This document shows, in pieces, positions 5,275 to 60,131 of a stretch of DNA of 64,000 nt. The notes beneath the pieces were generated by a model. That model was given only the letters and a program-made list of their open reading frames with translations. It did no database searches and was not told where the DNA came from. Every line of letters starts with the position of its first letter. The first letter of the stretch is position 1. The stretch comes from Meandrina meandrites (Eukaryota > Cnidaria > Anthozoa > Scleractinia > Meandrinidae). The position numbers were made by a program, and so were the translations under genes. Location of the stretch: assembly GCA_963693305.1 (NCBI GenBank), contig OY855915.1, forward strand, positions 9,251,607 through 9,315,606, read 5' to 3'.

Positions 5275-7091
5275 ATGAATTTCTCTCAGTCTTCATCGAT
5301 CGCGAGTGAAAATGAGTGTTTAAACTTTTTCTTCCAGACTGTTCCCTTGCGATATTCCTCTGTCGATTAATTTTATGGCTTGCTTGTCGCAGCAGCTGTC
5401 CTCGGCCTGGCCGCTTGTCCTTTTACCATTTTCTTGAACGCTTTGGTTATCGTTGCAGTGAAAATCAAACGAGGACTTCAAACACACCCTTACATTCTGT
5501 TGGCTTGTTTGGCGCTTACCGATCTGATGGCTGGACTTGTGGCACAACCCCTACACATCACCAAGACTATACTTCTCATACAAGGTAAAGATTTTCATGA
5601 ATTTTGTGACATTGATTTGGCATTTAGTGTCTCGAATGCGTTTTTGGTCCTCGCAACATCGTGTCATTTGGTTTTAATCAGCGGAAAGCCATTAAACACA
5701 CCTTCGCTCACGCTTCTGTCGTCACTAAAGCTCGCCTGATAGTTTCTTCTGCTGTAGCGTGGATGGTAGCCGCCTTATTTTTTCTTGTCGTTTCGTATTT
5801 AACTGTAATTTTTTTTTTGCATGCCCTGCAATACTCATTTCCACCATAGTCGTCCTTCAAATTCTCGTTTATAAGGAAGCCCGCAGACATGAAAAACAGA
5901 TTCTTTCACAGCAAGTTTCCTTGGAGGCCAGAGCAAAATTTAAACAGGAGAAGAAAGCTTTAAAACTAACCAGCATTATATTGGTGACAATTTTTCTGTG
6001 TTTCTTGTTGCCATCAACTGTTTTCTATTTCACGTGGCAGCTTTTCGGAGAAAATATCTCACCTGATATTAAAACATTAGTTCGTCATTGTGGTCTTCTG
6101 CCGGTGATGATTAATTCACTTCTAAATCCAGTCATTTACACAGTACGAAAAGAGGAGTTCCGAGTTGCATTTACTGAGTTACTTTTGAGGAAAAACTTGC
6201 AAGAGGCTGAAGAATTTCAACGAAGACTGTTTGGAACAACAAACAATGCTGGGAGACAGCAAGATGAACAACAAGGCGAAGGACAGGAACAGAATGCCGA
6301 GGAAAGAAATGCAGCGCTTGCTCAAGACAACCAAGATGATAATCCTGAAGTCCTAGCTACTGGCGCTAATATCGATGACAACACCACCCTCGCTTTACAT
6401 AACAAGCCTGTCTCCTCAAATGCACTTAACAGCATATCCAAAAAGAGAGAGGAAGAATATGGCGAGGAAAGAAATCCAGCTCGCGCTAAAAACAACATTG
6501 AAGATAATCCTGAAGTCCTCGCTTCTGGCAAAACACCAGAGGAAGAACATGACGAGGGAAGAAATCCAGCACACGCTGAAAACAGCCTTGAAGATAATCC
6601 TGAAGTCCTCGCTTCTGGCGCCAATTTCGATGGGAACACCACCCTCGCTACACACAACGAGTCTGTTTCCTTAAATGCACTCAACAGCATGTCCAAAACA
6701 CCAGAGGAAGAACATGACGAGGGAAGAAGTCCAGCACACGCTGAAAACAACATTGAAGATAATCCTGAAGTCCTCGCTTCTGGCAAAACACCAGAGGAAG
6801 AACATGACGAGGGAAGAAATCCAGCACACGCTGAAAACAGCCTTGAAGATAATCCTGAAGTCCTCGCTTCTGGCGCCAATTTCGAAGGGGAACACCACCC
6901 TCGCTACACACAACGAGTCTGTTTCCTTAAATGCACTCAACAGCATGTCCAAAACACCAGAGGAAGAACATGACGAGGGAAGAAGTCCAGCACACGCTGA
7001 AAACAACCTTGAAGATAATCTTTAAGTCCTCGCTTCTGGCACCAATTTCGATTGGAACACCACACTCGAAACACACAACGAGTCCTTTAAT
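5275..7091 (+). pseudogene. R1: class A GPCR, subtype A, pseudogene
   Basis: This is a degenerate copy of the local seven-transmembrane receptor. The original ATG (5275, MNFSQSSSIAS) is followed by an in-frame TAA at about 5368, inside the N-terminus. TM1-TM3 are then readable. A 10-bp deletion near 5688 removes the centre of the ERY-box codons and shifts the frame. TM4 is readable in pieces. An expanded T-run near 5815 shifts the frame again. TM5, TM6 (CFLLP), TM7 (NPVIY) and the tail are open from 5759 to 6973. The tail holds near-identical acidic repeats with EEEHDEGRNPAHAEN and LEDNPEVLASG motifs, and a +1 slip near 6890 breaks the last unit. R2 is the closest relative. With three lesions upstream of TM5 no functional receptor is expected. 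Confidence 0.85.
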
Positions 7092-14915: not shown

Positions 14916-17601
14916 ATGAATTTCTCTGAGTCTTCATCGATCGCGAGTGAAAATGATTGTAAAAGCCTTTTCTTCCAAACTGTTCCCTTGCGATATTCGT
15001 CTGCCGATTCATTTGATGACTTACTGTTAGCTGCAGCTGTCCTCAGTCTGGTCGCTTGTCTTTTTACCATTTTCTTGAACGCTTTGGTTATGGTTGCCGT
15101 GAAAACCAAACGACGACTTCAAACACACCCTAACATTTTGTTGGCTTGTTTGGCGTTTACCGACCTGATGGCTGGACTTGTTGCACAACCCCTACACATC
15201 ACCAAGACTATACTTCTCATACGAGGTAAAGATTTTCATGAATTTTGTGACATTGATTTGGCATTTAGTGTCTCGAATGCGTTTTTGGTTCTCGCAACAT
15301 CGTGTCATTTGGTTTTAATCAGCGGAGAGCGATATCTTGCCATTAAACACACCTTCACTCACGCTACGGTCGTCACTAAAGCTCGCCTGATAGTTAACCG
15401 CGCGGCCATGGGCCGAGCGCGGTTCTTGCTTTACACGGGATTTTTTTTGTTTTTTTTGTTTTTTTTGTTTTTTTGTCGGTGACCAGACCCAAACCTCCCC
15501 TCGGCCAAATCACGATCGGGACTGAATCACGCAACCTGGAATGCTTATTCGCCAAAAGCTGTTGGAGCAATGATGTACGGGGAATGTTACGGATAATGTT
15601 TTCTTTGTTGTGAATAATATATATTTTTCTTTGGGTTTTTTTCCGAAGCGTTGGATTCAAAGGGAATATTGAATTCACTAAGAAAAGGTATGACATCAGC
15701 CATGGAATGCGCTGACGTTGCAGCTTTCACTTTCGCTACGTGACAAATAAGATTGTGTTTACTTGGCATGTTTATTTCGCCAGAAGCGACGGTCGTTGCA
15801 GTCAAAACAGCTCAAGCGTTTCTATCGAGGGTGAATAATGAATTTATTTATGGAAATTTGATTTAATTCTTCGCTTCAATATTCCAGTCATGAAGAAAAT
15901 ATTTCAATGTTCAAAAGGCGGCTCAATTCAAATCGCGAATGTTAAATAGTTTGTTATCTTGCTTCACGCGACGGGCACGTGGGAATTTGGCCAAAATTTG
16001 CATAATTTCCACTGCAACAAGTCAACCACCAATTGTCACGCACACTGTTTCTTCATCATTTTGTTCGCATTGTGTTTTTTTTTGCAAGTTTATATCGGCA
16101 GAAGCGACGGTCATTAATTTATTTGCACCTCTGCGAGTATTTCTTGTGGGTTTAGGCAATTGCAAAGAAATTCTTTAGCTGTTTCATCGAAGCAAGTTCA
16201 AAGATTTAAAGGGAATTAAAATATTTGCTTAAGTAAACAATTGAGCGTGCCCAAACGTGCAGGGGTTACGTCATTAGAAGGGAAAAAACCCCGGATTGTG
16301 TGACTAACGTGACTACTTTGCTTGTCCTTTACTCATAATGCAAACAGATTAAATTTAACCGTGACTTTTGAGAAAGAAAGCTGTTAATTAGCCTAAAATA
16401 TAAGCGCGGTTTTAAGTTGCTATAGCAACTTCTTGTTTCTTCTGCTGTAGCGTGGATGGTAGCCGCCTTATTTTTTCTTGTCGTTTCGTATTTAACTGTA
16501 ATGTTTTTTGCATGCCCTGCAATACTCATTTCCACTATAGTTGTCCTTCAAATTCTCGTTTATAAGGAAGCCCGCAGACACGAAAAACACATTCTTTCAC
16601 AGCAAGTTTCCTTGGAGGCCAGAGCAAAATTTAAACAGGAGAAGAAAGCCTTAAAACTAACCAGCATCATCTTGGTGACAATTTTTCTGTGTTTCGTGTT
16701 GCCATCAACTATTATGTTTGTTACGTGGAAGCTTTTCGGAGAAAAACTCTCACCTGATATTAAAACATTAGTTCGTCATTTTGGTCATCTTCCGGTGATG
16801 ATTAATTCACTTTTAAATCCAGTCATTTACACAGTACGAAAAGAGGAGTTCCGAGTTGCATTTACTGAGTTACTTTTGAGGAAAAGCTTACAAGAGGCTG
16901 AAGAATTTCAAAGAAGACTGTTTGGAACAACAAACAATGCTGGTAGACAGCAAGATGAACAACAACACGAAAGACAGGAACAGAATGCTGAGGAAAGAAA
17001 TGCAGCGCTCGCTCAAGACAACCAAGATGATAATCCCGAAGTCCTCGCTACTGCCGCTAATTTCGATAACAACACCACCCTCGCTTTACATAACGAGCCT
17101 GTCTCCTCAAATGCACTTAACAGCACAGCCAAAGAGAGGGAGGAAGAACATGGCGAAGAAAGAAATCCAGCTCGTGTTAAAAACAACGTTGATGATAACC
17201 CTGACGACCTCACTTCTGACAATTTCGATGGCAACACCACACTCGCTACACACAACGAGACTGTTTCCTTAAATGCACTCAACAGCCTGCGCAAAACAGC
17301 AGAGGAAGAAAATGACGAGGGACGAAATCTAACCCATACTAAATACGACCTTGAAGATAATCCTGAAGCTCTCGCTACTGGCGCTAATGTCGATGACAAC
17401 ACAACCCTTGCTACACAGGAGCCGGTTTCCTCAAATGCAACAGTCTACCCAAAAAGACAGAGGAAGAACATGGCAAGGGAAGAAATCCAGCTGAAAACTG
17501 AAAACAACCTTGAAGATAATCCTGAAGTCATCGCTTCTGGCGCTAGTATTGATTTGAAAAACACTGAAACCGCTCAGAATGAGAACTTATCAGTCCTTTA
17601 A
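14916..17601 (+). pseudogene. R2: class A GPCR, subtype A, interrupted in TM4 by a 1 kb insertion
   Basis: The ATG at 14916 (MNFSESSSIAS) opens a frame covering the N-terminus, TM1 (N in FLNALVMVAV), TM2 (LAFTDLMAGL), TM3, the ERY box and the start of TM4. At 15396 a 1.04 kb foreign sequence begins. The receptor resumes near 16435 and is open to 17601, with TM5, TM6 (CFVLP), TM7 (NPVIY), helix 8 and a full acidic repeat tail ending in SVL. Neither half contains another stop or frameshift. A GT-AG removal from 15393 to 16425 would join the halves in frame (ATA to CAA) with three extra residues in TM4, giving about 550 aa, close to R5 and R8. It may be a pseudogene or a gene with a newly acquired intron. 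Transcript data would decide. Confidence 0.75.
15396..16434. mobile_element. 1.04 kb insertion inside R2, unclassified
   Basis: It is absent from the same site in all other receptor copies. It starts AACCGCGCGGCCATGG, followed by T-rich (TTTTTTTG)n, and ends at an 18-bp perfect palindrome (16414-16431) and CTT. GTT flanks both sides (15393-15395, 16435-16437), a possible 3-bp duplication. There is no coding capacity, and no long inverted repeats or retro-tail identify a class. Confidence 0.55.
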
Positions 17602-21482: not shown

Positions 21483-22841
21483 ATGAATTTCTCACAGACT
21501 TCATCGATCGAGATTGAAAATGATTGTAAAAGCTTTTTCTTCCAAACTGTTCCCTTGCGATATTCCTCTTCCGGCTCATTTCATGGCTTGCTTGTCGCAG
21601 CAGCTGTCTTCAGCCTGGCCACTTGCTTTTTTACCATTTTCCTGAACGCCTTGGTTATGGTTGCCGTGAAAATCAAACGACGACTTCAAACTCACCCTAA
21701 CATTCTGTTGGCTTGTTTGGCGCTTACCGATCTGATGGTTGGACTTGTTGTACAACCGCTACACATCGCCAAGACTATTCTCCTTATACAAGGTAAATAT
21801 AGTGACGAATTTTGTGACATTGATTCGGCATTTAGTGTCTCGTTTGTGATGTTGGTCCTCGCAACATCATGTCAATTGGTTTTAGTCAGCGGAGAGCGAT
21901 ATCTTGCCATTAAACACACCTTCACTCACGCTTCTGTCGTCACTAAAGCTCGCCTGATCGTTGCCTCTGCTGTGGCGTGGATTGCAGCCGCCGTATTTTT
22001 TCTTCTCATTTTGTATGTAAGTTTCCTTCCACAAGCAATAATCTATTCCTCAATAATTGTCCTTCAAATTCTCGTGTATAAGGAAGCCCGACGACATGAA
22101 AAACACATTCTTTCACAGCAAGTTTCCTTGGAGGCCAGAGTAAAATTTAAACAGGAAAAGAAAGCCTTAAAACTAACCACCGTAATATTAGTGACAATTT
22201 TTCTGTGTTTCGTGTTGCCATCAACTGTCATGTTTGTTACATGGGAGATTTTCAAAGAAAAACTCTCACCTGATATTAAAACATTAGTTCGTCATTTTGG
22301 TCATCTTCCGGTGATGATTAATTCACTTCTAAATCCAGTCATTTACACAGTACGAAAAGAGGAGTTCCGAGTTGCATTTACTGAGTTACTTTTGAGGAAA
22401 AGCTTACAAGAGGCTGAAGAATTTCAAAGAAGACTGTTTGGAACAACAATTTACAATGCTGGGAGACAGCAAGATGAACAACAAGGCGAAGGACAGGAAC
22501 AGAATGCTGAGGAAAGAAATCCAGCACATGCTAACGACAACCAGGATGATAATCCCGAAGTCCTCGCTAGTGCCGCTAATTTCGATAACAACACCACCCT
22601 CGCTTTACATAACGAGCCTGTCTCCTCAAATGCATTTAACAGCACAGCCAAAGAGAGGGAGGAAGAATATGGCGAAGAAAGAAATGCAGCTCGCGTAAAA
22701 AACAACGTTGATGATAATCCTGACGATCTCACTTCTGACAATAATTTCGATGGCAACACCACACTCACTACACACAACGAGGCTGTTTCCTTAAATGCAC
22801 TCAACAGCGGCACTGTACAAAACAGCAGAGGAAGAACATGA
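21483..22841 (+). CDS. R3: class A GPCR, subtype B, intact 7TM with frameshifted tail
   Basis: The ATG at 21483 (MNFSQTSSIEIEN) starts a 452-codon frame. It has a conserved N-terminal sequon (NFS), TM1 with N in FLNALVMVAV, TM2 LALTDLMVGL, TM3 after FCDIDSAF, the ERYLAIKHTF box, TM4 with AVAW, a very short ECL2, TM5 with Pro in SFLPQAIIY, the amphipathic ICL3 helix, TM6 CFVLPS, TM7 NPVIYTVRK and helix 8. An acidic tail follows. A net +4 change near 22807, against R2, shifts the frame and stops the protein at 22841. The remaining two tail repeats stay readable in another frame to a stop at 23127 (ending SVL). The receptor core may still function. R6 is the closest paralogue. Confidence 0.82.
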   Translation: MNFSQTSSIEIENDCKSFFFQTVPLRYSSSGSFHGLLVAAAVFSLATCFFTIFLNALVMVAVKIKRRLQTHPNILLACLALTDLMVGLVVQPLHIAKTILLIQGKYSDEFCDIDSAFSVSFVMLVLATSCQLVLVSGERYLAIKHTFTHASVVTKARLIVASAVAWIAAAVFFLLILYVSFLPQAIIYSSIIVLQILVYKEARRHEKHILSQQVSLEARVKFKQEKKALKLTTVILVTIFLCFVLPSTVMFVTWEIFKEKLSPDIKTLVRHFGHLPVMINSLLNPVIYTVRKEEFRVAFTELLLRKSLQEAEEFQRRLFGTTIYNAGRQQDEQQGEGQEQNAEERNPAHANDNQDDNPEVLASAANFDNNTTLALHNEPVSSNAFNSTAKEREEEYGEERNAARVKNNVDDNPDDLTSDNNFDGNTTLTTHNEAVSLNALNSGTVQNSRGRT

Positions 22842-40596: not shown

Positions 40597-42345
40597 ATGA
40601 ATTTCTCTCAGTTATCATCGATCGAGAGTGACAAAGAGTGTAAAAGCGTTTTCTTCCAAATTGTTCCCTTGGGATATTCTTCTGCCAATTCATTTTATGG
40701 CTTCCTTGTCGCAGCAGCTGTCCTCAACCTCGCCGCTTGTCCTTTTACCATTTTCCTGAACGCCTTGGTTTTGGTTGCCGTGAAAATCAAACGACGGCTT
40801 CAAGCACACTCTAACATTCTGTTGGCTTGTTTGGCGCTTACCGATCTCATGGTTGGACTTGTGGCACAACCCCTACACATCACCAAGACTATTCTCCTTA
40901 TGCAAGGTAAAGATTTCCACGAATTTTGTGACATTGATTTGGCATTTAGTCTCTCGCTTATGATGTTGGTTCTCACAACATCGCTTCACTTGGTTTTAAT
41001 CAGCGGAGAACGATATCTTGCCATTAAACACACCTTCACTCACGCTACTGTCGTCACTAAAGCTCGCCTGATCGTTTCTTCTGCTGTGGCGTGGATTACA
41101 GCCGCCATCTTTTTTCTTGTTAATTCGTATTTTAAAGTCTTTTTGTTTGTTTGGCCAACAATAATATTTTCTACAATTGTACTGCTCCAAATTCTCGTTT
41201 ATAAGGAAGCCCGACGACATGAAAAACAGATTCTTTCACAGCAAGTTTCCTTGCAAGCCAGAGCAAAATTTAAACAGGAGAAGAAAGCCTTAAAACTAAC
41301 CGCGATACTAATAGTGACAATTTTTGTATGTTTCATTTTGCCATCAATTGTTATGTTTGTTTCATGGAAGCTTTTCAGAGAAAAACTCTCACCTGATGTT
41401 AAAACTTTAGTTCGGCATTTTAGTCTCCTACCGCCGATTATCAATTCAGTAATTAATCCAGTTATTTACACAGTACGAAAGAGGCAGTTTCGAGTTGCAT
41501 TTATTGAGTTACTTTTGAGGAAAAGTTTCCAAGAAGCTGAAGAATTCGAAAGAAGACTGTTTGGAACAACAAACAATGCTGGGATTCAGCAAGATGAACA
41601 ACAAGGCGAAGGACAGGAACAGAATGCTGAGGAACGAAATCCAGTACATGCTGAGAACAACCAAGAAGATAATCCTGTAGTCCTCGCTTCTGGCTTCAAT
41701 TTCGATGGCAACACCACTCTCGCTACACAGAACGAGCGTAGGTCTTTAAATGTACTCAACAGCATGTGCAAGACAGCAGAGGAAGGACATGAGAAGGGAA
41801 AAAATGTTGCCCATGCTGAATTCGACCTAGACGATAATCCTGATAACCAATTGCAAGCTACTTGCTCGTATGTGGATGACACATCTACCCTCGCTACATA
41901 CGAGCGTATTTCCTCACATGCACTCAACAGCACACCCAAAAAGGCATCGGAAGAACATGATGAGGGAAGAAATCTAACCCATGCTAAAAGCAACCTTGAA
42001 GATATTCGTGAAGACCTTGCTACTGCCTCTCTCGCGACACAGAACGAACTTGTCTCCTTAAATACACTCAAAAGCGTATCCATAAACGAAGAGCAGAAAC
42101 ATGGCGAGGAAAGAAATCCAGCACATGCTAAAAACAACTTTGAAGACAATCCTGAGGAACACGCTTCTGCCGCTAAGATTGTTTTCAAAAGCGTTGAAAC
42201 GGCTCAAAACAAGAATTTGCCAGTCCTCCAAACGGAACACGACACATCCAAAATAACAGAAAAACAACCACAGCATCAAGAAGGACTAGAGAAAGGTCAA
42301 CTGGACATTGACACTGTGGCAGAATTTAAGGTGACATCCCTTTGA
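40597..42345 (+). CDS. R5: class A (rhodopsin-like) GPCR, subtype D, intact, 582 aa
   Basis: A complete single-exon receptor expected in the plasma membrane. The ATG at 40597 fits all paralogues and gives a sequon (NFS). TM1 is about residues 36-62 (N55 in FLNALVLVAV), TM2 73-95 (D83 in LALTDLMVGL), TM3 begins after C111, ERY is 138-140, W166 lies in TM4, and Pro187 in TM5. ICL3 is an amphipathic basic helix (SQQVSLQARAKFKQEKK), TM6 is 232-256 (CFILP, so Ile replaces the usual Trp at the toggle position), and NPVIY is 287-291. ECL2 is only a few residues and has no Cys to pair with C111. Residues about 310-582 are an acidic, probably disordered tail of about four repeats, ending in VTSL, a class I PDZ-ligand pattern. 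Ligand unknown. Short ECL2 recalls melanocortin/cannabinoid/adenosine-like receptors. Confidence 0.93.
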   Translation: MNFSQLSSIESDKECKSVFFQIVPLGYSSANSFYGFLVAAAVLNLAACPFTIFLNALVLVAVKIKRRLQAHSNILLACLALTDLMVGLVAQPLHITKTILLMQGKDFHEFCDIDLAFSLSLMMLVLTTSLHLVLISGERYLAIKHTFTHATVVTKARLIVSSAVAWITAAIFFLVNSYFKVFLFVWPTIIFSTIVLLQILVYKEARRHEKQILSQQVSLQARAKFKQEKKALKLTAILIVTIFVCFILPSIVMFVSWKLFREKLSPDVKTLVRHFSLLPPIINSVINPVIYTVRKRQFRVAFIELLLRKSFQEAEEFERRLFGTTNNAGIQQDEQQGEGQEQNAEERNPVHAENNQEDNPVVLASGFNFDGNTTLATQNERRSLNVLNSMCKTAEEGHEKGKNVAHAEFDLDDNPDNQLQATCSYVDDTSTLATYERISSHALNSTPKKASEEHDEGRNLTHAKSNLEDIREDLATASLATQNELVSLNTLKSVSINEEQKHGEERNPAHAKNNFEDNPEEHASAAKIVFKSVETAQNKNLPVLQTEHDTSKITEKQPQHQEGLEKGQLDIDTVAEFKVTSL

Positions 42346-42985
42346 ACTATAGATTGCGTTTTTAATTTAGTGAAATTAGACTAAGAGATAAATTTTCGAC
42401 CGTATTCTAGAACGACAGGCGTAACTAATATTTCACTTTGTGTTTTCTACCGCCAACTTATTTTACCGCTTTCCTGGCCTTTATTCGCTTTTCTCATCTC
42501 ACGGAGTCGTTTTCAAACATTTTTTTTTTGCAGAAAAGAGAATTCGGGAAATGTACTATTCCAAATGAACTTAGCCATTTTTATTGTTTACAAACTCAGT
42601 TTTTTAAGCTCGTTCAGAAAATTGTAAAAATATAAATAATCTGCAAAACCTTTACCTTCTGATGAAAAAATAAAAATCTTCATCGAATCCTAAATAATAA
42701 GATACGTTTGATTTTGACCTGTAAATAGCGTGTTATTCCCAACAAACTAAACAGGGATGTACGTTCTCTTTCAAAGATGTCTTTTGCTTCTGTTGCCTGT
42801 CACCTCTTAAACAATTTACCCGCGAATGCTGGTAATGAGGCAAGTTTTAATACTTTCGATTGATTTAGGAACCAATCATACCGTGTTTTATTACAAACTC
42901 AAGGCAAATGCAATTTTTTTCTTTTCAACACTTGAGTAAGAAGCGCTGCATAGACATTTAAATTTTTGATAATTCAGTATATATA
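42346..42985. repeat. 3' flank of R5, duplicated after R8
   Basis: Aligned to 60.2-60.93 kb and 61.42-61.52 kb. Block II holds about 500 bp more at 60.93-61.43 kb. No gene. Confidence 0.6.
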
Positions 42986-43287
42986 TCTTATTAGACATTT
43001 TAGTGTGTAGTATCGCTGTATATTTTTGCGAGTCATACAGTATTTTGGTGAACCCGAAGGGCAAGTCAAAATACAAATGATGAGTAAAAATTTACAGCGA
43101 TACTACACATTAAACTGTCTAATAAGAGATTTATTATCCAACGTTTTCGTTTTCCCAAAATGCTGACTTACTAAGGTTTTTAATCTTTCGGGCGTTCGGG
43201 GGAATGAGACGAGTACAAATATCGTGTGATATTTGTACTTGTTTCGCGCGTTATTTGTACTCTACTAAGCAATGTTGGAAAATAATA
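42986..43287. mobile_element. Short hairpin-ended element (TCTTATTAGAC family)
   Basis: A 302-bp relative of the 26268 element: long terminal hairpin (arms TCTTATTAGACATTTTAGTG, slightly decayed), TTATTATCCAAC, the GAGTACAAATATC hairpin and TGTTGGAAAATAATA. No recombinase relic. Confidence 0.65.
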
Positions 43288-43544
43288 CAATTTTCCACAT
43301 TTACATAGTGTACTTTTAGTGTCATAGATACACTGGGTATCTCTGCTGAATATTCCTTAGCGCAAATTGTTTCAATGATTGATTGAGTAACCCTTGATTG
43401 ATTCATTGAGTGAAGGAGTGATTAAAATATTGTTTTGTTTTTTTGCTTGATCTAATTCCCTTTGCCTCATGTCGGAAATAAGTAGCCGGTTTGGTGAAAA
43501 ACTTTGTAAGATAAACAAATATTTTTTTCTGCAGGATGTGATTA

Positions 43545-43676
43545 AACGATTGACTTATCGATTGATCAATTGATCAATTGATCAATAATTGATCATTTGA
43601 TCATTATTGATTGATTGATTGATCAATTTATCAATCAATTGAGATCGACTGATCAATCAATTGATAAATCGAGTTT
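43545..43676. repeat. TGATCAAT palindromic repeat cluster
   Basis: Irregular tandem and inverted repeats of TGATCAAT/ATTGATCA, duplicated at 62063-62189 with the downstream flank. Low-complexity, no coding role seen. Confidence 0.75.
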
Positions 43677-44085
43677 TTTCGCCCTTGCCAGCGGTTGCAT
43701 GTTTTCCTACCCTGGCAAATGGTTGCAACCGGTTTTAAAGTATTTTCCCTCCCTTGTTTACCACCAGCTCTTCCCTCCCCCCCTCCCCTACCCCGAGCAC
43801 CAGCTACAAGTAACAAATTACACTGGTCATCAACTTACCCCTGGACTTTAAAGAATTGCAAGTAAGCTTTTTTATTCAGGGTTCTGGGCACAAATCGCAG
43901 ACACGTTTTCCTATCCCATTGTTTGATGTCATTCAGCACAAAACGAACAGCACTATTCATTTTCCTGAAAAAGATAAAAGCAAGACATCACGAGGCGTCT
44001 ACAACAGAGGTCTATAACAGTGTAGACCATACTGGGTAAAATGTGGTCGATTTGTTTTTTTTAACAATAACAGAAATATAAACAC
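43677..44085. repeat. Shared flank of the duplicated block
   Basis: Near-identical to 62190-62608 (TTTTTTCGCCCTTGCCAG and following). No gene. Confidence 0.6.
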
Positions 44086-44334
44086 AGAAATATGAATATT
44101 TTTAAAAACACAACAACGCTTTTTAGTTTTTGGAACATGTTTCGATGTTTCAAACATCATCATCAGCCATAATGAATATATAAGGTTTACAGAATGATCG
44201 TTATTATATATGTAACAGCCTATACAATGAGCCTTTATAAATTCAAATTAACGTAAAATGCAAACTTATTTAAACTAACCAATAAAAATAGAAAAGAACA
44301 ATAGTGACATAACCACTAAGCTGAAATTGATACA

Positions 44335-44919
44335 TTAAAAGTGTAACGATAAATTGACATGCTCAACTTGTTTGTTGAGTTCTGGATTTAACCGTTCAAT
44401 ATGAAAACTCTCCTTGATTTTAAGTTGTGAGAAAGTCTTAGCAGAATCAATAATCTTAAAACTAGAGGCATCACATCTATCTCGACAATGCCTAGAACAA
44501 TTAAGATGTTTAAAAACATGGGAATTTTTGTCCCGGAAAAGATGTTCATTAACACGTGTGTGAAAATGCCTATTGGTTTCACCAATATAACGAGCTCCAC
44601 AGCTCGCACACGTAAACTGATACACAACACGTGATTTTAGACACTCGGGAATAAAATCCTTAGGACTAAACATACAACTAAGTTTGAATGGAGAGAATAT
44701 AACTTTTACATTTAAATCTTTGCAATACTTATTAATAATAGATGAAATTTTCTTCCCTGTGTAGGTAGAATAAAAACCAATATATGGTAGTTTGTAAAAA
44801 TGGCAGTTGGATTTGTCAGATGTTGAAGTATCCACATCCTGTTCTGTGGTTTTGACCTTTCTAAGATAACCTCTAGCTGACTTGTCAATGAGCCATTTAG
44901 GAAACAGATTACGTTTCAA
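44335..44919 (-). pseudogene. Penelope-like GIY-YIG domain fragment, left arm
   Basis: This 194-codon minus-strand frame is the 3' part of a Penelope-like element ORF. It starts in what looks like the end of the reverse transcriptase/thumb region (LFPKWLIDKSARGYLRK). It continues through a linker (IGFYSTYTGKKISSIINKYC) into the GIY-YIG endonuclease domain: VVYQFTCASCGARYIGETNR, RVNEHL and a Cys/His cluster (CSRHCRDRCD), ending KQVEHVNLSLHF. The paired Cys before YIGET and the E in NEHL are typical of the family's nuclease. The frame is 5'-truncated and cannot mobilise itself. It is longer than the right arm copy by about 40 codons. Confidence 0.8.
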
Positions 44920-44928
44920 AATAACAGA

Positions 44929-45406
44929 AAATAACTGCCATTTTTACAAACTACCATATATTGGTTTTTATTCTACCTACACAGGGAAGAAAATTTCATC
45001 TATTATTAATAAGTATTGCAAAGATTTAAATGTAAAAGTTATATTCTCTCCATTCAAACTTAGTAGTATGTTTAGTCCTAAGGATTTTATTCCCGAGTGT
45101 CTAAAATCACGTGTTGTGTATCAGTTTACGTGTGCGAGCTGTGGAGCTCGTTATATTGGTGAAACCAATAGGCATTTTCACACACGTGTTAATGAACATC
45201 TTTTCCGGGACAAAAATTCCCATGTTTTTAAACATCTTAATTGTTCTAGGCATTGTCGAGATAGATGTGATGCCTCTAGTTTTAAGATTATTGATTCTGC
45301 TAAGACTTTCTCACAACTTAAAATCAAGGAGAGTTTTCATATTGAACGGTTAAATCCAGAACTCAACAAACAAGTTGAGCATGTCAATTTATCGTTACAC
45401 TTTTAA
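44929..45406 (+). pseudogene. Penelope-like GIY-YIG domain fragment, right arm
   Basis: The plus-strand copy of the same domain, beginning at NCHFYKLPYIGFYS, where homology with the left arm starts. It has the same GIY-YIG motifs (CASCGARYIGETNR, RVNEHL) and C-terminus. The only difference I see over about 155 residues is one (KLSS for KLSC). The open frame extends upstream to 44882 through unrelated sequence at the inversion junction, so the annotated start is the homology boundary and not a real start codon. Confidence 0.8.
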
Positions 45407-45692
45407 TGTATCAATTTCAGCTTAGTGGTTATGTCACTATTGTTCTTTTCTATTTTTATTGGTTAGTTTAAATAAGTTTGCATTTTACGTTAATTTGAAT
45501 TTATAAAGGCTCATTGTATAGGCTGTTACATATATAATAACGATCATTCTGTAAACCTTATATATTCATTATGGCTGATGATGATGTTTGAAACATCGAA
45601 ACATGTTCCAAAAACTAAAACGCGTTGTTGTGTTTTTAAAAATATTTACAACACTTGTGCTATCAAGACCCTTTGGTAAAGAAATATGAATA

Positions 45693-47473
45693 CCCAGAAA
45701 TGGGAAGAAAGATTAGTTTAGGATTTGTCTCTGCGTGACTGCGGAAATTATAAATCAGAATTTACTGTACTTTAAAATCAAATAGAGTGGAATTCCAATT
45801 TCTTTAAATTCCAAAGGAAAGCAAACATTGGTTCGAGAAATTTGGGGTAAAATTGCAGTTTTCGACTGAGTGAAGGGAAGCGACCTTCGGTTCGAATAAT
45901 CGGGGGAGGTTAGAGAAATCGAGAATACGAATAATTGGGATTATCGACCATAAAATATATCATTTTTCATGCCTGACCGCTCTAGACCTCGAAAGAAATA
46001 TGACGGCTTTTTTTATTTCTTCACGCATAAGCCTAAACTAAAAATATTGGCGTTTTGTACTTAACACTCTAAATGAGACCAAAATCGATTTTTTACATCC
46101 CTAAGCGAGACGACGAGAACCCCTGCCCCTTTGATATGGAAGTAATATAGCAGAAGGATACGTTGCACTATATCCAATCGAATTTATTTTTGTTGAGTAG
46201 ATATTCCACTTCAAACTATGCGCGCCGTGGGTGCGAGCGATTCAACTGCAGTAAACAAACCAAATACCTAAGTATAATATTCTACCTAAACTGACGAGAA
46301 AAAATAAAGGACAAGTACAGAACTTACAATGTGTGTCAATCCATATTCCATGATCCAAATTCATCATAAATAAGGGTAAAACGAGAACGGTTTATCCAGA
46401 AACAAAGTTACAAGTAAATCCAAAAAAACTGCTAATACGGCGCTATTGTAATTTATTATATATGAAATACTGATATATTATTCTCATGGGTATTATGTAA
46501 TCGGTGCAAAATGCGAATAACAGTGACGGGAATTCAAGTCTTAACACCAAATGCGCTAGTAGAGTTGGAGTTCTATCATGTTCTATCATTGTACGTTATG
46601 GAACAAGATTTTTGAGTTCTGGATCAGAATACTCAGACATCGATTCTTGGTCTCTTAATGGTTTACCGAATTGTGATAGCTCGAACCGAAAGTAATTTCC
46701 CTTTGATTTACTTCACCCAGTCAAACACGGCAATTTTAACCCCGATTCCTAAAGCCTCCGATTTGATGATGATGATGACGAAGATGATGATGATGGTGAT
46801 GATCATGGTAATAATATCATTTTGCCTTCTTTCTGTGACATACATTTCTCTGGTATCTTTACGTGAAGTTTTATCAAAACCTTTCTACAGTTACTGTTCA
46901 GTTGTTTAGAATATGAAAGTGAGTCGTCGACATTCACCTGCGTTGCTTTCTAAAATACTTAAGGAACTTGACAATAGAAACTTTCATCGCATTTTAACGA
47001 ATTTTCTGAATATTTCCCGATAACTGCTTCTATTGGCCGTTTAAAAGGGTTTAAAGTGTCGCTAAAATTGATATCCGCCACGAAAATCATTTTCATTATT
47101 ACAACTATAATTACTACTTTTCTGCAAGGAAGTAAAACAGATTGTTTTGAAAGGCCACATTAGTAACAACCTAGTGTTTAAAATTCATATTTTAACTTTT
47201 CAAAAAGTGCTTGCCGTGTGTAGAATTAACCATAAATGAGAAACAAATTTTGCAGTTTAATTCTCTTAATGACACGATATTAACGAAAGGTGATAAAATT
47301 ATCACCTGGTAATAGAGCCATGTTGCAAAATTAGGAAATGGAAAATATTTTCTGTTTTAATTGGGTCAAGGAAACACAAATAGAAGTTTAGGAGTGAGAG
47401 AAATGCTGTAGGAACTGACATATGAACTCACAATTGATCTTGCTCACAATGTGTGGTTTCATACTTCATACTT
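45693..47473. repeat. Right flank of duplicated block I and unique sequence
   Basis: 45.69-46.56 kb matches 62.62-64.0 kb, apart from two insertions in block II. A (GAT)n-like microsatellite lies at 46764-46805. Beyond 46.6 kb no match within the window was noticed. No gene. Confidence 0.5.
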
Positions 47474-47541: not shown

Positions 47542-49178
47542 TTTTGCTTCTTAAATTCCAGTTACTCATAAAGATTCACTGCTAAGATCGTCTTTCACTT
47601 ACTTAGATATTTTTTTCTAATCGCAAGTTTTCGAATTCACAATTCTCAAGTCCAGTTTTCTAGCGCTTAAGGCTAGTTTTATCACTGAAAACTTTCTCGT
47701 TACTGATGCGTTTTGTGTCAATTCCTTGAAAATTTCCATGAATTTTTTGACGTGTTTTTCCCTTCGGTTTTAATTTATCCAGTACCTCCCACTAGCGCAT
47801 TAGCACATTCAGTAATTTTGAAAAGCTTTAGGCTTCACCCGAGTTACAATTAACTTAAGGCGTGTTTATTTTGGGCTGTGTCGCTACAAAGGCAAGTTTT
47901 TGACGCATAACGCGTGTTACCTGGGTCGAGTTACACAAAAACAAAAGAACTTATTGTTTCACAAGAAATAGTTCGTACGACCATCCCATAAAATTCGCAC
48001 TAGAGGAAATCTCTGTGACTTTCCGCACGAACCAATTTTCAGCCGCGTTCGTAGTGGCCTTTGGTGTAAACCGATTCGTACAAATTGCTTATACACAATC
48101 CAATACGAAAACTGCGTTCGCATTCGCGGCCACGTTTACGTTCATAGTTGTGCGCTGAATAAACAGGCTTTTATTCAGTCGCGCGGTGGGCGGAATTTCA
48201 CACGCAGTATTCGGAAAGGCCGCTGATAATTAAACAGATCTAAACAGGTCGAGACAGCTGCCAGCTACGGCCGCATTTCTTTCGGAGTAGTTTCCTAAAT
48301 ATCACACAATTTATATTTACAAATGAAACTGCTTTTTAACGTCCGACGTTCATCGTTTATTTAAATTGTAAAAATATGGTTAGTCCGTAATTTCTTTTAA
48401 AAATACAATCTTTGTTTTCCTGAAAATAAACAGATTCAAAAATTTCCAGCAAAAGACTTTCTGCTGCCTGACAAATTAAAATTCTCCATGAAGACGGCTA
48501 AAGCTCAAAACCTCAAAAAGGGCTTGTATTAACTATGGCAATATATTCAACTTGTAAATTAGTGTATTAAACGCACGAAAGCAATCAAATTATATTTTAA
48601 TTCTTCTTGTGCATTTGACACCACTAAACCAGAATATAATTTGAAAGACAAAGGATAAACTGAAAGAGGCATTTGTTCGGAAAGGTTCAAAAAAATATTC
48701 GGACATCAACTCCAAGATTACTTCAATTTTGCTTTGACCATTTTCCGAGAACGCCACATATCAAATATAAGGATTTCGTTTTACCAAATTCATTTTGCTA
48801 TCCGAATTTGTAGTTTTCGTCATATCCTAAGGCTAATACATGGAACTATATTACATAATACCAATTAAAAACAAATTACATATGTATTCACGTACCGCTT
48901 TAAACATTAAAGTTGGCAACAAACCTATTTTCTCCATTGTAAAGAGTTTGACTATAGTTAAACTCGATACTTAACATAAAAACAGTGGGAAACAAACTAA
49001 AAACGCAATAATGCTAATGTTGTTCGCGAATTTGCATTCGCTTAAATTTTAATTGTACAACTAAACAACACATTGTTGTACTATGTAGTAAAGGAAAGCT
49101 TTGTCCCAGAGCTACATCGTGAATGAATAAAGCGACAATTTCTTATAAGAGAGCGACGCAGGCACTTTCAATACGATG
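47542..49178. repeat. 5' flank of R6, related to that of R1
   Basis: Aligned by eye with about 4.0-5.2 kb upstream of R1. It does not match the 5' flank of R3, although the R6 body is subtype B. No gene. Confidence 0.5.
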
Positions 49179-49188
49179 AGATATAAAA
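49179..49188 (+). promoter_or_regulatory. Candidate TATA box of R6
   Basis: GATATAAAAG about 35 bp before the ATG at 49223, followed by CACAGTCC. R1 and R2 have related but weaker TTTAAGTA at the same place. Confidence 0.35.
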
Positions 49189-49222
49189 GCACAGTCCATC
49201 TTCACAGCTGCTACTAAGAAAC

Positions 49223-51011
49223 ATGAATTTCTCACAGTCTTCATCGATCGCTAGTGAAAATGAATGTAAAAGCTTTTTCTTCCAAACTGTTCCCTTGCGA
49301 AATTCTTCTGCCAGTTCATTTTATGGCTTGCTTGTCGCAGCAGCTGTCCTCAGCCTATTTTACCATTTTTTTGAACGCCTTGGTTATGGTTGCCGTGAAA
49401 ATCAAACGACGACTTCAAACACACCCTAACATTCTGTTGGCTTGTTTGGCGCTTACCGATCTGATGGTTGGACTTATTGTACAACCTCTACACCTCACCA
49501 AGACTATTCTTCTTGTACAAGGTAAAGATTTTCACGAATTTTGTGACATTGATTTGGCATTTAGTGTCTCGTTTGTGATGTTGGTCCTCGCAAGATCATG
49601 TCAATTGGTTTTAGTTAGCGGAGAGCGATATCTTGCCATTAAACACACCTTCACTCACGCTTCTGTCGTCACTAAAGCTCGCCTGATCGTTGCCTCTGCT
49701 GTGGCGTGGATTGCAGCCGCCGTATTTTTTCTTCTCATTTTGTATGTAAGTTTCCTTCCACAAGCAATAATCTATTCCTCAATAATTGTCCTTCAAATTC
49801 TCGTGTATAAGGAAGCCCGACGACATGAAAAACACATTCTTTCACAGCAAGTTTCCTTGGAGGCCAGAGCAAAATTTAGACAGGAGAAGAAAGCCTTAAA
49901 ACTAACCACCGTAATATTAGTGACAATTTTTCTGTGTTTCGTGTTGCCATCAACTGTTATGTTTGTTACATGGAAGCTTTTCGGAGAAAAACTCTCACCT
50001 GATATTAAAACATTAGTTCGTCATTTTGGTCATCTTCCGGTGATGATTAATTCACTTCTAAATCCAGTCATTTACACAGTACGAAAAGAGGAGTTCCGAG
50101 TTGCATTTACTGAGTTACTTTTGAGGAAAAGCTTACAAGAGGCAGAAGAATATCAAAGAAGACTGTTTCGAACAACAAACAATGCTGGGATACAGCAAGA
50201 TGAACAACAAGGCGAAGGACAGGAACAGAATGCTGAGGAAAGAAATGCAGCACACGCTAACGACAACCAGGACGATAATACCAAAGTCCTCGCTACTAGC
50301 GCTAATCATAGTTCGATGACAACACCACCCTCGCTTCACATAACGAGCCTGTCTCCAACAGCATATCCAACGAGGGAGAGGAAGAACATGGGGAGGGAAG
50401 AAATGCAGCTCGCGATAAAAACAACTTTCAGCATAATTTTGAAGACCTCACTTCTGACAACAATTTCGATGGCAACACCACCCTCGCTACACACAACGAG
50501 TCTGTTTCCTTAACTGCACTCAACAGCATGTCCAAAACACCAGAGGAAGAACATGACGAGGGAAGAAGTCCAGCACACGCTGAAAACAACCTTGAAGATA
50601 ATCCTGAAGTTCTTGCTTTTGGCAACAATTTCGATGGGAACACGACCCACGCTACACACAACGAGGCTGTTTCCTTAAAGGCACTCAACAGACTGTCCAA
50701 AACAGCAGAGGAACATGACGAGAGAAGAAATCTAACCCCTACTAAATACGACCTTGAAGATAATCCTGAAGTTTCAATCGCTACTGGCGCAAATGTCGAT
50801 GACAACGCAACCCTTGCTACACACGAGCCTGTTTCCTCAAATGCACTCAACAGTATACCCAAAAAGACAGGAGAAGAACATGGCAAAGGGAAGAAATCCA
50901 GCACACACTGAAAACAACCTTGAAGATAATCCTGAAGTCATCGCTTATGGCGCTAGTATTGATTTGAAAAACACTGAAAACCGCTCAAAGTGAGAACTTA
51001 TCAGTCCTGTA
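49223..51011 (+). pseudogene. R6: class A GPCR, subtype B body with A-like 5' end, frameshifted
   Basis: The ancestral ATG at 49223 (MNFSQSSSIASENEC) reads to about residue 45. There an 11-bp deletion within TM1, against the R3 and R8 reading AGCCTGGCCGCTTG, shifts the frame. The second frame has its own ATG at 49260 and is open to 50513. It carries a shortened TM1 (FTIFLNALVMVAV), TM2, TM3, ERYLAIKHTF, TM4, TM5 (SFLPQAIIY), TM6 CFVLP and NPVIY. A +5 change near 50309 shifts the tail into a non-homologous frame that stops at 50513. The original tail repeats are readable in other frames to about 51011. An aberrant receptor from 49260 is conceivable, but TM1 and the N-terminus are damaged. The body is nearly identical to R3. 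Confidence 0.82.
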
Positions 51012-52966: not shown

Positions 52967-54918
52967 ATGAATTTCTCTCAGTCTTAATCGATCGAGACTG
53001 AAAATGATTGTAAAAGCCTTTTCTTCCAAACTGTTCCCTTGCGATATTCTTCTGCCGATTCATTTTATGGCTTGCTTGTCGCAGTAGCTATCTTCAGCCT
53101 GGCCGCTTGTTCTATTACCATTTTCCTGAACGCCTTGGTTATGGTTGTAGTGAAAATCAAACGACGAATTCAAACACACCCTAACATTCTGTATGTAAGT
53201 TTGTCACTTACCGATCTCATGGTTGGACTTGTTGTACAGCCCTACACATCACCAAGACCATTCTCCTTATACAAGGTAAAGATTCTCACGAATTTTGTCA
53301 CATCAATTTAGCATTTACTATGTCCTTTGTTATTTCCTTTTTTACATCGTTATTTCACTTGGTATTAATCTGCGGGGAGCGATACCTTGCCATTAAACAC
53401 ACCTTCACCCATGCTAATGTTGTCACTAAAGCTCGTCTCTTGATTTCTTCCACTGTGGCGTGGATTGCAGCCGTAATTTTTCTTCTCGTCGCATCCTATT
53501 CAGTGGTAGTGGCATTTGTTTTTAAAGCAGCAACCTTTTCTTCAATCGTCTTGCTTCACACTCTCGTTTATAAGGAAGCCCGCCGACAGGTAAAGCAGAT
53601 TCTTTCACAGCAGGTTTCGGTGCAGGCCAGAGCAAAATTTGAAAAGGATATAAAAGCCTTAAAACTAAACACCATCATATGAGTAGCAATTTTTGTGTGC
53701 TTGTTTTTGCCACCAATTGTTACATTTGTTGTATGGCAACTTTTAGGAAAAAAAAACTGTCATCTGATGTAAAAACTTTAGTTCGTCATTTTGGTCTACT
53801 ATTGACGACTTTCAATTCAGTTCTTAATCCAGTCATTTACACAGTACGAAAATAGGAGTTCCGAGTTGCATTTATTGAGTTGCTTTTAAGGAAAAGTTTA
53901 CAAGGAGCTATAGGATTCGAAAGAAGACTGTTTGGATCAGCAAAGAATGCTGTGAGACCACAAGAAGAATAACAAGGTGAAGGACAGGAACAGAATGTTG
54001 AGGAAAGAAATGCAGAAATGTCGCACGCTAACGACAACCAGGAAGATAATCCTGAAGACCTCGCCGCTATTGCTAATGTTGATGACCACACCACTCTCGC
54101 TAGGCACAACGAGCCTGTCTTCACAAATGAACTGAACAGCATTTCCAAAACGACAGAGGAAAAAGATTTTGAGAGAAGAAACCCAGCTCACGCTAAAAGC
54201 TACCTTGAAGATACTCCAGAAGACCCTGCTTCTGGAGCTAACCTCGATGATACCACTCTCGCTACACACAACGAGCCTGTCTTCTCAGATGGACCCAACA
54301 GCGTATTCCAAAAAGACAGAGGAAGAACATGGCGAGGGAAGAAATCTAACCCATCCTAAGAGCGACCTTGAAGATAATCGTAAATCCCTGTCTTCTGGCT
54401 CTAATTTCGATGCCAAAACCACCTTCACTACACACAACAAGCCTATCTACTCAAATGCACTCCACATCACATCCACAGAGACAGAGGAAGAACAAAGCGA
54501 GGGAAGAAATCCAGGTCGAGCTAAAAACAAGCCTTGAAGATAATCCTGAAGACCTTGCTTCTCACGGTAATTTCCATGACAACACCACCCTCGCTACACT
54601 CAACGAGCCTGTCTCCTCAAAAGCACGTAACAGCATATCCAAAAAGGCAGAGGAAGAACAAGGCGAGAGAAGAAACCCAGCTCACGCTAAATGCGACGTT
54701 GAAGATTTTCCTGAAGACCCCGCTCGTGGGGCTAATGGAAGGACGTGGCAAGAGAAGAAAGATCCAGTACACGCTAAAAGCGACCTTGAAGACAATCTTG
54801 AAATCCTCGCTTCTGGTGCTAATATTGATATGAAAAGCACTGGAACTTCTCAGAACAATTGGAACGCAACACACTCAAAATAACAGAGGAACAACACAAC
54901 ATCAAGAATGACTACAGA
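52967..54918 (+). pseudogene. R7: class A GPCR, subtype C, pseudogene
   Basis: The ATG at 52967 is followed by a TAA at codon 7 (MNFSQS-stop). TM1 and TM2 are readable in pieces (FLNALVMVVV, SLTDLMVGL). A 1-bp deletion near 53240 shifts the frame. TM3 to the ICL3 helix are open from 53320 to 53682 (ICGERYLAIKHTF, FKAATFSSIVLLHTLVYKE). A TGA at 53680 ends the frame at the start of TM6. TM7 retains NPVIYTVRK followed by TAG, and the tail has several frame changes through 54.9 kb. Subtype C signatures match R4 throughout. R7 preserves the ICL3 segment that R4 lost to the foldback insertion. No function is expected. Confidence 0.88.
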
Positions 54919-57505: not shown

Positions 57506-57600
57506 CCAATGGCAGCGCACCTTTTCCCTCTTAAACCAATCACAGTTGAGCACGTCAGAAAGTTCCTTTAATTCCGAGAAAAGCCTGACAGCTGCAAATA
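57506..57600 (+). promoter_or_regulatory. Conserved CCAAT/CCAAT/E-box module upstream of R8
   Basis: CCAATGG at 57506, CCAATCAC at 57536 and CAGCTG at 57589-57594 followed by CAAATA, about 0.95 kb before the ATG. Same order and spacing as at R2 and the R4-linked module. Confidence 0.45.
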
Positions 57601-58451: not shown

Positions 58452-60131
58452 ATGAATTCCTCTCAGTCTTCATCGATCGAGAGTGGAAATGATTGTAAAA
58501 GCTTTTTTATTCAAACTGTTCCCTTGGGATATTCTTCTGCCGATTCATTTTATGGCTTGCTTGTCGCTGCAGCTGTCCTCAGTCTGGCCGCTTGTCCTTT
58601 TACCATTGTGCTAAACGCCTTGGTTATGGTGGCCGTGAAAATCAAACGACGACTTCAAACACACCCCAACATTTTGTTGGCTTGTTTGGCGCTTACCGAT
58701 CTGATGGTTGGACTTGTTGCACAACCTCTACACATCACCAAGACTATACTCCTTATTCAAGGTAAAGATTTTCATGAATTTTGTGACATTGATTTGGCAT
58801 TTAGTGTCTCGTTTATCATGTTGGTCCTCGCAACATCATGTCAGTTGGTTTTAATCAGCGGAGAGCGATATCTTGCCATTAAACATACCTTCACTCACGC
58901 TACTGTCGTCACTAAAGCTCGCCTGATCGTTTCTTCTGCTGTGGCGTGGATTACAGCCGCCATCTTTTTTCTTGTTAATTCGTATTTTAAAGTCTTTTTG
59001 TTTGTTTGGCCAACAATAATATTTTCTACAATTGTACTGCTCCAAATTCTCGTTTATAAGGAAGCCCGGCGACATGAAAAACAGATTCTTTCACAGCAAG
59101 TTTCCTTGCAAGCCAGAGCAAAATTTAAACAGGAGAAGAAAGCTTTAAAACTAACCGCGATACTAATAATGACAATTTTTCTATGTTTCTTTTTGCCATC
59201 AATTGTTTTGTTTGTTACATGGCAGCTTTTCAGAGAAAAACTCTCACCTGATGTTAAAACTTTAGTTCGGCATTTTAGTCTCCTACCGCCGATTATCAAT
59301 TCAGTAATTAATCCAGTCATTTACACAGTACGAAAGAGGCAGTTTCGAGTTGCATTTATTGAGTTACTTTTGAGGAAAAATTTCCAAGAAGCTGAAGAAT
59401 TCGAAAGAAGACTGTTTGGAACAACAAACAATGCTGGGAGACAGCAAGATGAACAACCAGGCGAAGGACAGGAAGATAATGCTGAGGGAAGAAATCCAGC
59501 ACATGTTGAGGACAAAAGCGAAGATAATCCTGAAGTCCTCGCTTCTGGCTTAAATTTCGATGACAACGCCACTCTCGCTACACAGAACGAGCCTGTTTCC
59601 TTAAATGTACTCAACAGCATGTCCAAAACGGCAGAGGAAGGAGATGAGAAGGGAAAGAATCTTGCCCATGTTGAATTCGACCTTGATGATAATCCTGATA
59701 ACCAAGCTACTTGCTCGTATCTGGATGGCACATCTACCCTGGCTACATACGAGCGTGCTTCCTCACATACACTCAACAGCATACCCAGAAAGGCATCGGA
59801 AGAACATGGTGAGGGAAGAAATCTAACCCATGCTAAAAGCAACCTTGAAGATAATCCTGAAGACCTTGCAACTGCCTCTCTCGCGAAACAGAACGAACCT
59901 GTCTCCTTAAATACACTCAAAAGCATGTCCGTAAACAAAAAGCAAAAACATGGCGAGGAAAGATATCCAGTCTATCCAGCACATGGTAAAAACAACCTTG
60001 AAGACAATCCTGAGGAACACGCTTCTGCCGCTACGATTGTTTTCAAAAGCGTTGAAACTGCTCAGAACAAGAATTTGCCAGTCCTCCAAACGGAACACGA
60101 CACATACAAAATAACAGATAAACAGCCATAG
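58452..60131 (+). CDS. R8: class A (rhodopsin-like) GPCR, subtype D, intact, 559 aa
   Basis: A complete single-exon receptor. The ATG at 58452 matches all paralogues (MNSSQSSSIES, sequon NSS). Landmarks: N55 in VLNALVMVAV (TM1), D83 in LALTDLMVGL (TM2), C111 before TM3, ERY 138-140, W166 (TM4), P187 (TM5), CFFLP 245-249 (TM6, Phe instead of toggle Trp), NPVIY 287-291, helix 8 about 293-309. ECL2 is minimal, without Cys. TM4-TM5 are essentially identical to R5. The tail (310-559) has the acidic repeats (SEDNPEVLASGLNFDDN, EEHGEGRNLTHAKSNLED). The stop is a TAG where R5 has CAG. Beyond it the R5-like 23 residues ending VTSL are still readable, so R8 has lost a possible PDZ ligand by one base change. 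Confidence 0.93.
   Translation: MNSSQSSSIESGNDCKSFFIQTVPLGYSSADSFYGLLVAAAVLSLAACPFTIVLNALVMVAVKIKRRLQTHPNILLACLALTDLMVGLVAQPLHITKTILLIQGKDFHEFCDIDLAFSVSFIMLVLATSCQLVLISGERYLAIKHTFTHATVVTKARLIVSSAVAWITAAIFFLVNSYFKVFLFVWPTIIFSTIVLLQILVYKEARRHEKQILSQQVSLQARAKFKQEKKALKLTAILIMTIFLCFFLPSIVLFVTWQLFREKLSPDVKTLVRHFSLLPPIINSVINPVIYTVRKRQFRVAFIELLLRKNFQEAEEFERRLFGTTNNAGRQQDEQPGEGQEDNAEGRNPAHVEDKSEDNPEVLASGLNFDDNATLATQNEPVSLNVLNSMSKTAEEGDEKGKNLAHVEFDLDDNPDNQATCSYLDGTSTLATYERASSHTLNSIPRKASEEHGEGRNLTHAKSNLEDNPEDLATASLAKQNEPVSLNTLKSMSVNKKQKHGEERYPVYPAHGKNNLEDNPEEHASAATIVFKSVETAQNKNLPVLQTEHDTYKITDKQP

Follow-up and report, generated by a model that had tools for sequence, protein, structure and literature searches.

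The question raised by this locus is how a coral came to carry the same three receptor subtypes twice in the same order. The locus is a 64,000-nucleotide window of Meandrina meandrites (contig OY855915.1, positions 9,251,607 to 9,315,606 of the forward strand; coordinates below count from the first base of this stretch). It holds eight copies of a class-A G protein-coupled receptor (GPCR) gene, all arranged head-to-tail and all lying where the original prediction had placed them. That prediction sorted the copies, named R1 to R8, by sequence motifs between transmembrane helices 4 and 5 (TM4-TM5) into the subtype order A-A-B-C-D-B-C-D, and deduced that the block R3-R4-R5 had been duplicated as R6-R7-R8. 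In the following, we present evidence that these class-A GPCR genes, whose coding frames are uninterrupted, are part of a tandem array of a stony coral that has quite probably been shaped by repeated non-allelic homologous recombination.

The receptor array

The eight copies are as follows.

5275..7082, plus strand: R1, subtype A pseudogene with repeat tail; codon 32 is a stop, and 10 bp are deleted at GERY
14916..17600, plus strand: R2, subtype A pseudogene, split by an insert at 15396-16434; N-terminal half and TM4-TM5 are A-like
within 14916..17600, plus strand: 3' part of R2 from about 16582, R3/B-like
21483..22841, plus strand: R3, subtype B; open frame of 452 amino acids (identical to protein P0009), whole seven-helix part open
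34349..37105, plus strand: R4, subtype C pseudogene; 1.09-kb insert and, further on, a frameshift
40597..42345, plus strand: R5, subtype D; open frame of 582 amino acids (identical to protein P0002); divergence from R8 changes near 40990
49223..50960, plus strand: R6, a chimera of subtype B; TM1 carries an 11-bp deletion, and from TM1 onwards the frame is open
52967..54883, plus strand: R7, subtype C pseudogene, disrupted by several stops and by frameshifts
58452..60131, plus strand: R8, subtype D; open frame of 559 amino acids; divergence from R5 changes near 58845

All four motif pairs of the prediction are present. In TM4-TM5, the nucleotide difference within pairs is 3.2% (R1/R2), 0% (R3/R6), 9.7% (R4/R7) and 1.1% (R5/R8), as opposed to 26-42% between subtypes, which bears out the sorting into these pairs. 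Subtype D is open twice, subtype B once (R3), and subtypes A and C never; the earlier statement that D is intact and C dead in both blocks is thus correct. The genes are unevenly spaced: 11.2 kb separate R3 from R4, whereas R6 and R7 are 2.0 kb apart.

Mosaic copies within the array

The relationship between two copies changes along the gene. In R5 and R8, the 3' part is young and the 5' part is old: the number of silent differences is 20.5/100 in codons 1-142 and 4.5/133 thereafter (p=3.8e-5), and the change point lies at 40990 in R5 and 58845 in R8 (p=0.0033, the lowest value that 300 permutations can give). Between TM4 and the third intracellular loop (ICL3) the two differ by 1%, and in most of the tail by 7-13%. 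R2 is A-like in front and B-like behind. Its nearest protein is P0004 (A type) in the N-terminal half and in TM4-TM5, and P0006 (B type) in the C-terminal half. Compared with R3, its silent differences drop from 37.3/181 to 2.0/50 (p=0.0048, uncorrected), with a change point at 16582 in R2 and 22098 in R3 (p=0.0033). For R3 and R6, the corresponding values are 9.5/98 and 3.0/131 (p=0.018, uncorrected), and the change point is at 22547 in R3 and 50273 in R6 (p=0.0066). This pair contains a stretch without any difference, the coordinates of which were counted by hand from the alignment:

21888..22133, plus strand: part of R3 from TM3 to ICL3, identical to R6 (49617-49862) in 84/84 polymorphic columns

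Permutation of identity runs gave p<0.05 for six of the 21 pairs after multiplication by 21, namely R5/R8, R2/R7, R3/R6, R7/R8, R2/R3 and R2/R6. R4 and R7, both of which are dead, served as a negative control. They keep an even mutual divergence along the gene; silent differences are 13/97 and 20/114 (p=0.45), and the identity run is not exceptional (p=0.38). The C copies are not wholly outside the exchange, since the first 130 alignment columns of R7 share runs with R2 (p=1e-4) and with R8 (p=0.0013).

Several points weigh against the interpretation of these patterns as exchange. The split points were picked after inspection of the data, and among the 21 silent-site tests (seven pairs, three splits each) only R5/R8 at codon 142 survives Bonferroni correction, which removes the shifts of R3/R6 and R2/R3. 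The subtypes diverge strongly from one another in TM4-TM5, which helps the identity-run test. Moreover, a near-identical donor for the 5' half of either R5 or R8 is missing from the window, the nearest copies being 7-9% different in TM1-TM3. R1/R2 display neither a silent-site shift (p=0.67) nor a significant change point (p=0.27). Finally, a change point was also found in the control pair R4/R7 (37136 on the R4 side and 54948 on the R7 side, p=0.0033), in poorly alignable sequence behind the tail.

Segment trees and flanking sequences

The pairs were tested segment by segment by means of trees and approximately unbiased (AU) tests. Eight copies were used, with the exception of the 3' flank, where the tree comprises six, because that stretch finds no match at R5 and R8. 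All four pairs come out of core columns 431-700 and again of columns 701-1021. Core columns 1-430 recover R1/R2, R3/R6 and R4/R7; R5/R8 is not recovered there, at a cost in log-likelihood (dlogL) of only 0.12. R4/R7 is found in every segment tested, and R5/R8 is not rejected in the 5' flank (dlogL 0.77). The core support for R3/R6, given as approximate likelihood ratio test and ultrafast bootstrap (SH-aLRT/UFBoot), is 65/72, 99.9/100 and 73/61 for the three successive core segments. In the 3' flank, R1/R2 and R4/R7 come out as pairs, and R3/R6 is not rejected (dlogL 2.5, pAU 0.28). In the 300-base 5' flank, R3/R6 is clearly rejected (dlogL 37, pAU 2e-5): R3 groups with R4, R7, R8 and R5, and R6 falls near R1 and R2. 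With cores and flanks treated separately, as the original prediction had proposed, its pairs are thus returned by the later core segments and, for R4/R7, throughout, but R3/R6 is not returned in the 5' flank.

Two other pairings were considered. An exclusive R1/R6 pairing is not rejected in the 5' flank (dlogL 9.5, pAU 0.06). It is rejected in all three core segments and in the 3' flank, and R6 is therefore not simply the counterpart of R1. Raw distances suggested R2 and R3 as sisters in the 3' flank, which the tree test rejects (pAU 1.6e-4).

The flanks were compared by Kimura two-parameter (K2P) distances, calculated after the removal of columns with low local identity, which lowers the values. 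The following flanks are of relevance.

3307..5274, no strand: R1 5' flank; its beginning resembles the far 3' flank of R8, its continuation the R6 5' flank
42346..46551, no strand: R5 3' flank; pairs with the R8 3' flank (K2P 0.052, insert 44095-45646 left out)
48180..49222, no strand: R6 5' flank; R1-like (K2P 0.32 to 4200-5274), not R3-like
60132..64000, no strand: R8 3' flank; pairs with the R5 3' flank; 63304-63544 also matches 3307-3566 in front of R1 (74%)

R6 combines an R1-like upstream region with a B-type body. Over 1 kb upstream of R6, 728 positions were kept in the comparison with R1 and only 109 in that with R3. The sequence in front of R1 agrees with the far 3' flank behind R8 in 74% of 261 columns; R1 and R6 thus both follow a D-type flank at similar positions. 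For a D-type gene end immediately upstream of the window, a search of positions 1-5274 with the R8-like protein gave no sign, with nothing below an E-value of 0.38.

The C and D copies pair by their bodies and by their flanks. The original prediction had regarded the 3' flanks at 42.3-46.6 and 60.2-64.0 kb as independent support for the block duplication, and these flanks do correspond, in six aligned pieces of 88-95% identity. They match each other over approximately 2.4 kb and other places only in pieces of at most 456 bases. The correspondence is interrupted by a 1.55-kb insertion in the first block and by stretches that are present only after R8. The distances (95% intervals in brackets) are 0.121 (0.087-0.154) for the 5' flank and 0.052 (0.040-0.066) for the 3' flank of R5/R8, 0.113 (0.070-0.177) and 0.153 (0.125-0.183) for those of R4/R7, and 0.088 (0.071-0.109) for the 3' flank of R3/R6. 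The three 3'-flank intervals do not overlap; the distances 0.052, 0.088 and 0.153 therefore do not reflect one event with one clock.

Upstream of R7, positions 52360-52682 match the 5' flanks of R2, R3, R4, R5 and R8 in reverse orientation, and this piece thus seems to be inverted.

Origin of the repeated block

Our preferred explanation, non-allelic homologous recombination acting repeatedly, comprises two kinds of steps. First, an unequal crossing over would have repeated a block of B-, C- and D-type genes. If the crossover joint lay near the 5' end of R6, it would have put an R1-like upstream region in front of a B-type body; the order A-A-B-C-D-B-C-D and the foreign upstream region of R6 would then result from one step. 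Second, further exchange, by crossover or gene conversion and in either direction, would have replaced parts of genes and produced the mosaics. The donors of the exchanged tracts may lie outside the window.

The explanation that retains most of the original prediction is a single clean duplication of R3-R4-R5 to R6-R7-R8, with all later differences due to point mutations, insertions and deletions. It is in line with the four pairs in core columns 431-1021, and with the fact that in every segment tested R4/R7 is recovered and R5/R8 not rejected; R3/R6 is likewise not rejected in the 3' flank. The rejection of R3/R6 in the 5' flank contradicts it, and a breakpoint at the 5' end of R6 would rescue this point. 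Such a breakpoint rescues neither the unequal 3'-flank distances nor the silent shift inside R5/R8. For these three reasons, the duplication of a block stands whereas one clean copy of three genes does not, and we regard the latter as unlikely.

Still less likely are several separate single-gene duplications, which would have produced the order B-C-D twice by chance and without any block event. The heterogeneous pair distances and the different spacing of R3-R4 and R6-R7 are in favour of this reading. The far upstream region of R4 also has its best matches with R8 and R5: positions 28429-28974 are 85% identical to the region upstream of R8 (57181-57711) and do not match that of the pair partner R7, and positions 28622-28753 are 95% identical to the region upstream of R5; these upstream matches also count in favour of our preferred explanation. 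However, three subtypes recur in the same order and orientation and have the D-type 3' flank in common. In addition, the R4-R5 and R7-R8 intervals contain matching stretches, namely 37738-38876 and 55359-56436 (79%), 39888-40008 and 57358-57472 (89%), and 40016-40372 and 57667-58026 (88%).

An assembly artefact that joined two haplotypes is highly improbable: a 1,492,787-base contig with a near-identical R8 protein (P0001) indicates that two haplotypes or assemblies exist, but P0001, which we infer to be an allele of R8, differs from it in only 2 of 559 residues, whereas the blocks differ by 5-15% (R5/R8 by about 9% in the receptor part, R4/R7 by about 12%).

Receptor class and related sequences

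The Pfam scan, which took in R3, the first part of R4, R5, R6 and R8, assigned all five pieces to the family 7tm_1, with scores of 77.7-97.3 bits and a cut-off of 30.5. The signature of class-A receptors consists of an Asn in TM1, an Asp in TM2, the E/DRY motif, a Trp in TM4, a Pro in TM6 and the NPxxY motif. Across 67 sequences, N55, D83, E138, R139, W166, P249, N287, P288 and Y291 either do not vary or are conserved to at least 90%, and seven transmembrane helices plus helix 8 were found.

In the seven-helix model, only residues 179-180 separate TM4 from TM5. A very short second extracellular loop is typical of melanocortin receptors, and the modelled gap of two residues agrees with this feature. 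MC4R and MC5R align over most of the receptor, and adrenergic and histamine receptors outscore them among the best 60 of 313 matches. The best 60 of 379 rows of a profile search do not include a melanocortin receptor; none is among the 50 Foldseek and 50 VIA matches listed either, which proves nothing. Two proteins of Oculina patagonica (P0010 and P0121) carry the name 'melanocyte-stimulating hormone receptor-like', and P0010 is 75% identical to the receptor part of R8. The Oculina receptors belong to another species, and C-like frames are open there.

Variation within the family peaks in residues 166-195 (mean pair identity 0.43 and 0.31; 126 of 130 sequences), the second half of which, residues 181-195, is the least conserved block of 15 residues. 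This pattern fits a role of TM4-TM5 in the choice of ligand.

Each receptor tail is built from an acidic unit of some 55 residues that is repeated in tandem a variable number of times:

6294-7041, 16990-17545, 50384-50938, 54042-54719, and behind R3, R4, R5 and R8: tail repeats

The unit is matched by 66 of the 125 relatives that were fetched, and the repeat tail is therefore a trait of the family; Oculina P0010 contains tail units as well.

Further copies probably exist in this species, to which P0003-P0008 were counted, P0003 (on a 111,644-base contig) by similarity alone. The B-type proteins P0006 and P0008 are not encoded in the window, where their best identities are 90.5% and 92.9%, respectively. 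They presumably sit on the same 1,361,808-base contig as the R3 and R5 proteins of the window. Eight is consequently the count within the window only, and the array probably extends beyond it. Besides the R8-like P0001, the 1,492,787-base contig contains an open A-type copy (P0004), a B-type copy (P0007) and P0005. The latter, of 340 residues, represents a further TM4-TM5 type, whose identity to the other sequences of the set does not exceed 0.74; the end of the protein resembles, by eye, the start of the R4 tail.

Age of the TM4-TM5 region

Outside its pair, TM4-TM5 of R7 has its best matches in Oculina P0019 (0.76), followed by P0039 and Oculina P0012 (0.74). AU tests with 60 of the 130 sequences (14 from this species, 31 chosen and 15 random) rejected a single clade of all its copies including C for TM4-TM5 (pAU 0.017; Shimodaira-Hasegawa test, pSH 0.058), and did not reject it for the rest of the gene (pAU 0.41). 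Subtype C thus probably predates the split from Oculina. C-like copies are open in Oculina, whereas both C copies of the window are dead. A search for an intact C copy in this species with a C-like query from Oculina gave, among the 120 of 624 matches listed, no new protein from contigs of 1,361,808 or 1,492,787 bases.

For the other subtypes, a clade of the species' own A/B/D/E sequences was not rejected in TM4-TM5 (pAU 0.42), and a trans-species age of A, B and D in this region is thus not supported. The FastTree phylogeny of TM4-TM5 (130 sequences) places 17 other sequences inside this group, at a weak support of 0.72. In the tree of the rest of the gene, the own sequences form a pure clade of 12 (0.977).

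The subtype labels are best read as holding mainly for TM4-TM5. One may go further and propose that TM4-TM5 is a protected specificity cassette, which escaped exchange between subtypes and was homogenised within them, while the rest of the gene was homogenised across subtypes. This proposal is tentative, and we consider it rather doubtful. It was assessed with one copy per subtype (R2, R3, R7 and R8). Silent divergence in codons 173-205 exceeds that outside 2.2-fold for A-D, 2.5-fold for B-D and 1.7-fold for C-D, with codon permutation values of p=0.006, 0.004 and 0.028, respectively, and of 0.006 for the six subtype pairs pooled. TM4-TM5 may therefore be older and not only faster evolving. 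The rejection, in TM4-TM5 but not in the rest of the gene, of one clade that includes the C copies points the same way. On the other hand, A-B shows no excess (p=0.42), and A-C (0.11) and B-C (0.09) are not significant. The control with contiguous windows is weaker, as 22 of 331 windows reach the A-D value and 9 of 331 the B-D value. The A/B/D/E clade, which was not rejected for TM4-TM5, likewise speaks against a cassette.

Insertions and other elements

Two copies are interrupted by inserts.

15396..16434, no strand: 1.04-kb insert in R2, between TM3 and TM4
34977..36059, no strand: insert in R4; inverted ends of about 257 nucleotides, 99.2% alike

An element of 3,008 bases (30364-33371) explains part of the longer spacing between R3 and R4. 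Its matching inverted ends are made of a 7-base minisatellite, the arrays of which (30388-30728 and 32692-33347) have opposite orientation. Its termini form an inverted repeat of 23 bases or more, the target site is duplicated over 7 bases (CCATGTG), and the element resembles a Foldback-type transposon.

The sequence 44095-45646 in the 3' flank of R5 is a palindrome with two 714-base arms, which are 100% complementary and separated by 124 bases. It is a real insertion, since a 13-base duplication surrounds it and the R8 flank lacks it. It encodes a weak GIY-YIG match below the Pfam cut-off, which we presume to be like that of Penelope elements. On the minus strand, positions 9226-12386 contain an element resembling a long interspersed nuclear element (LINE), with a reverse transcriptase spread over two overlapping reading frames and a weak endonuclease match below the cut-off. 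Between R4 and R5, a tRNA-Thr (anticodon GGT) was called at 37351-37426, with an Rfam score of 31.3 bits and a threshold of 29.

Discussion

The tandem expansion of GPCR genes in corals is already known. In the sections available to us, Noel et al. (2023, PMC10236652) name the rhodopsin-like GPCR as the most abundant domain in amplified coral families (34 of 192 orthogroups) and describe coral tandem arrays as large and old, with genus- or species-specific expansions; GPCR orthogroups are, according to the accessible part of PMC12005167, enlarged in Astrangia, too. The tandem amplification of rhodopsin-like GPCRs in PMC10236652 is like the one seen here. However, the same sections call gene conversion very rare in corals, whereas we found mosaics within genes. 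The argument given there is based on exon/intron structure and on mutations located mostly in introns; receptor genes without coding introns could therefore escape it. The mosaics thus question one published generalisation.

Comparable exchange occurs in other systems. As far as the text at hand of PMC8877049 goes, the class-A GPCR paralogues CCR2 and CCR5 are likewise chimeric, with conversion over parts of the coding region. They are two mammalian genes, whereas the present array has at least eight copies, many of them dead, and subtype identity residing in TM4-TM5. In the non-syntenic regions of Acropora, which show gene expansion, the arrangement of genes differs between haplotypes, and this is explained there by non-allelic recombination, through unequal crossing over or break-induced replication (PMC12314368); the example given is the TPR-CHAT DCP family, and the terms GPCR, G protein-coupled and gene conversion are absent from the main text of that paper in the form available.

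The array is mostly ordinary genome churn, yet it speaks against very rare exchange in corals, as mosaics within genes and a negative control stand side by side in one array. Trees of whole genes would mislead on the history of the copies, since the closest relative depends on the part of the gene. The geometry of the class-A binding pocket is a ground for tying TM4-TM5 to ligand selectivity. Judged by this geometry, the array probably yields cell-surface receptors that would differ from one another in ligand selectivity through TM4-TM5, which marks this region as the place to seek differences in ligands.

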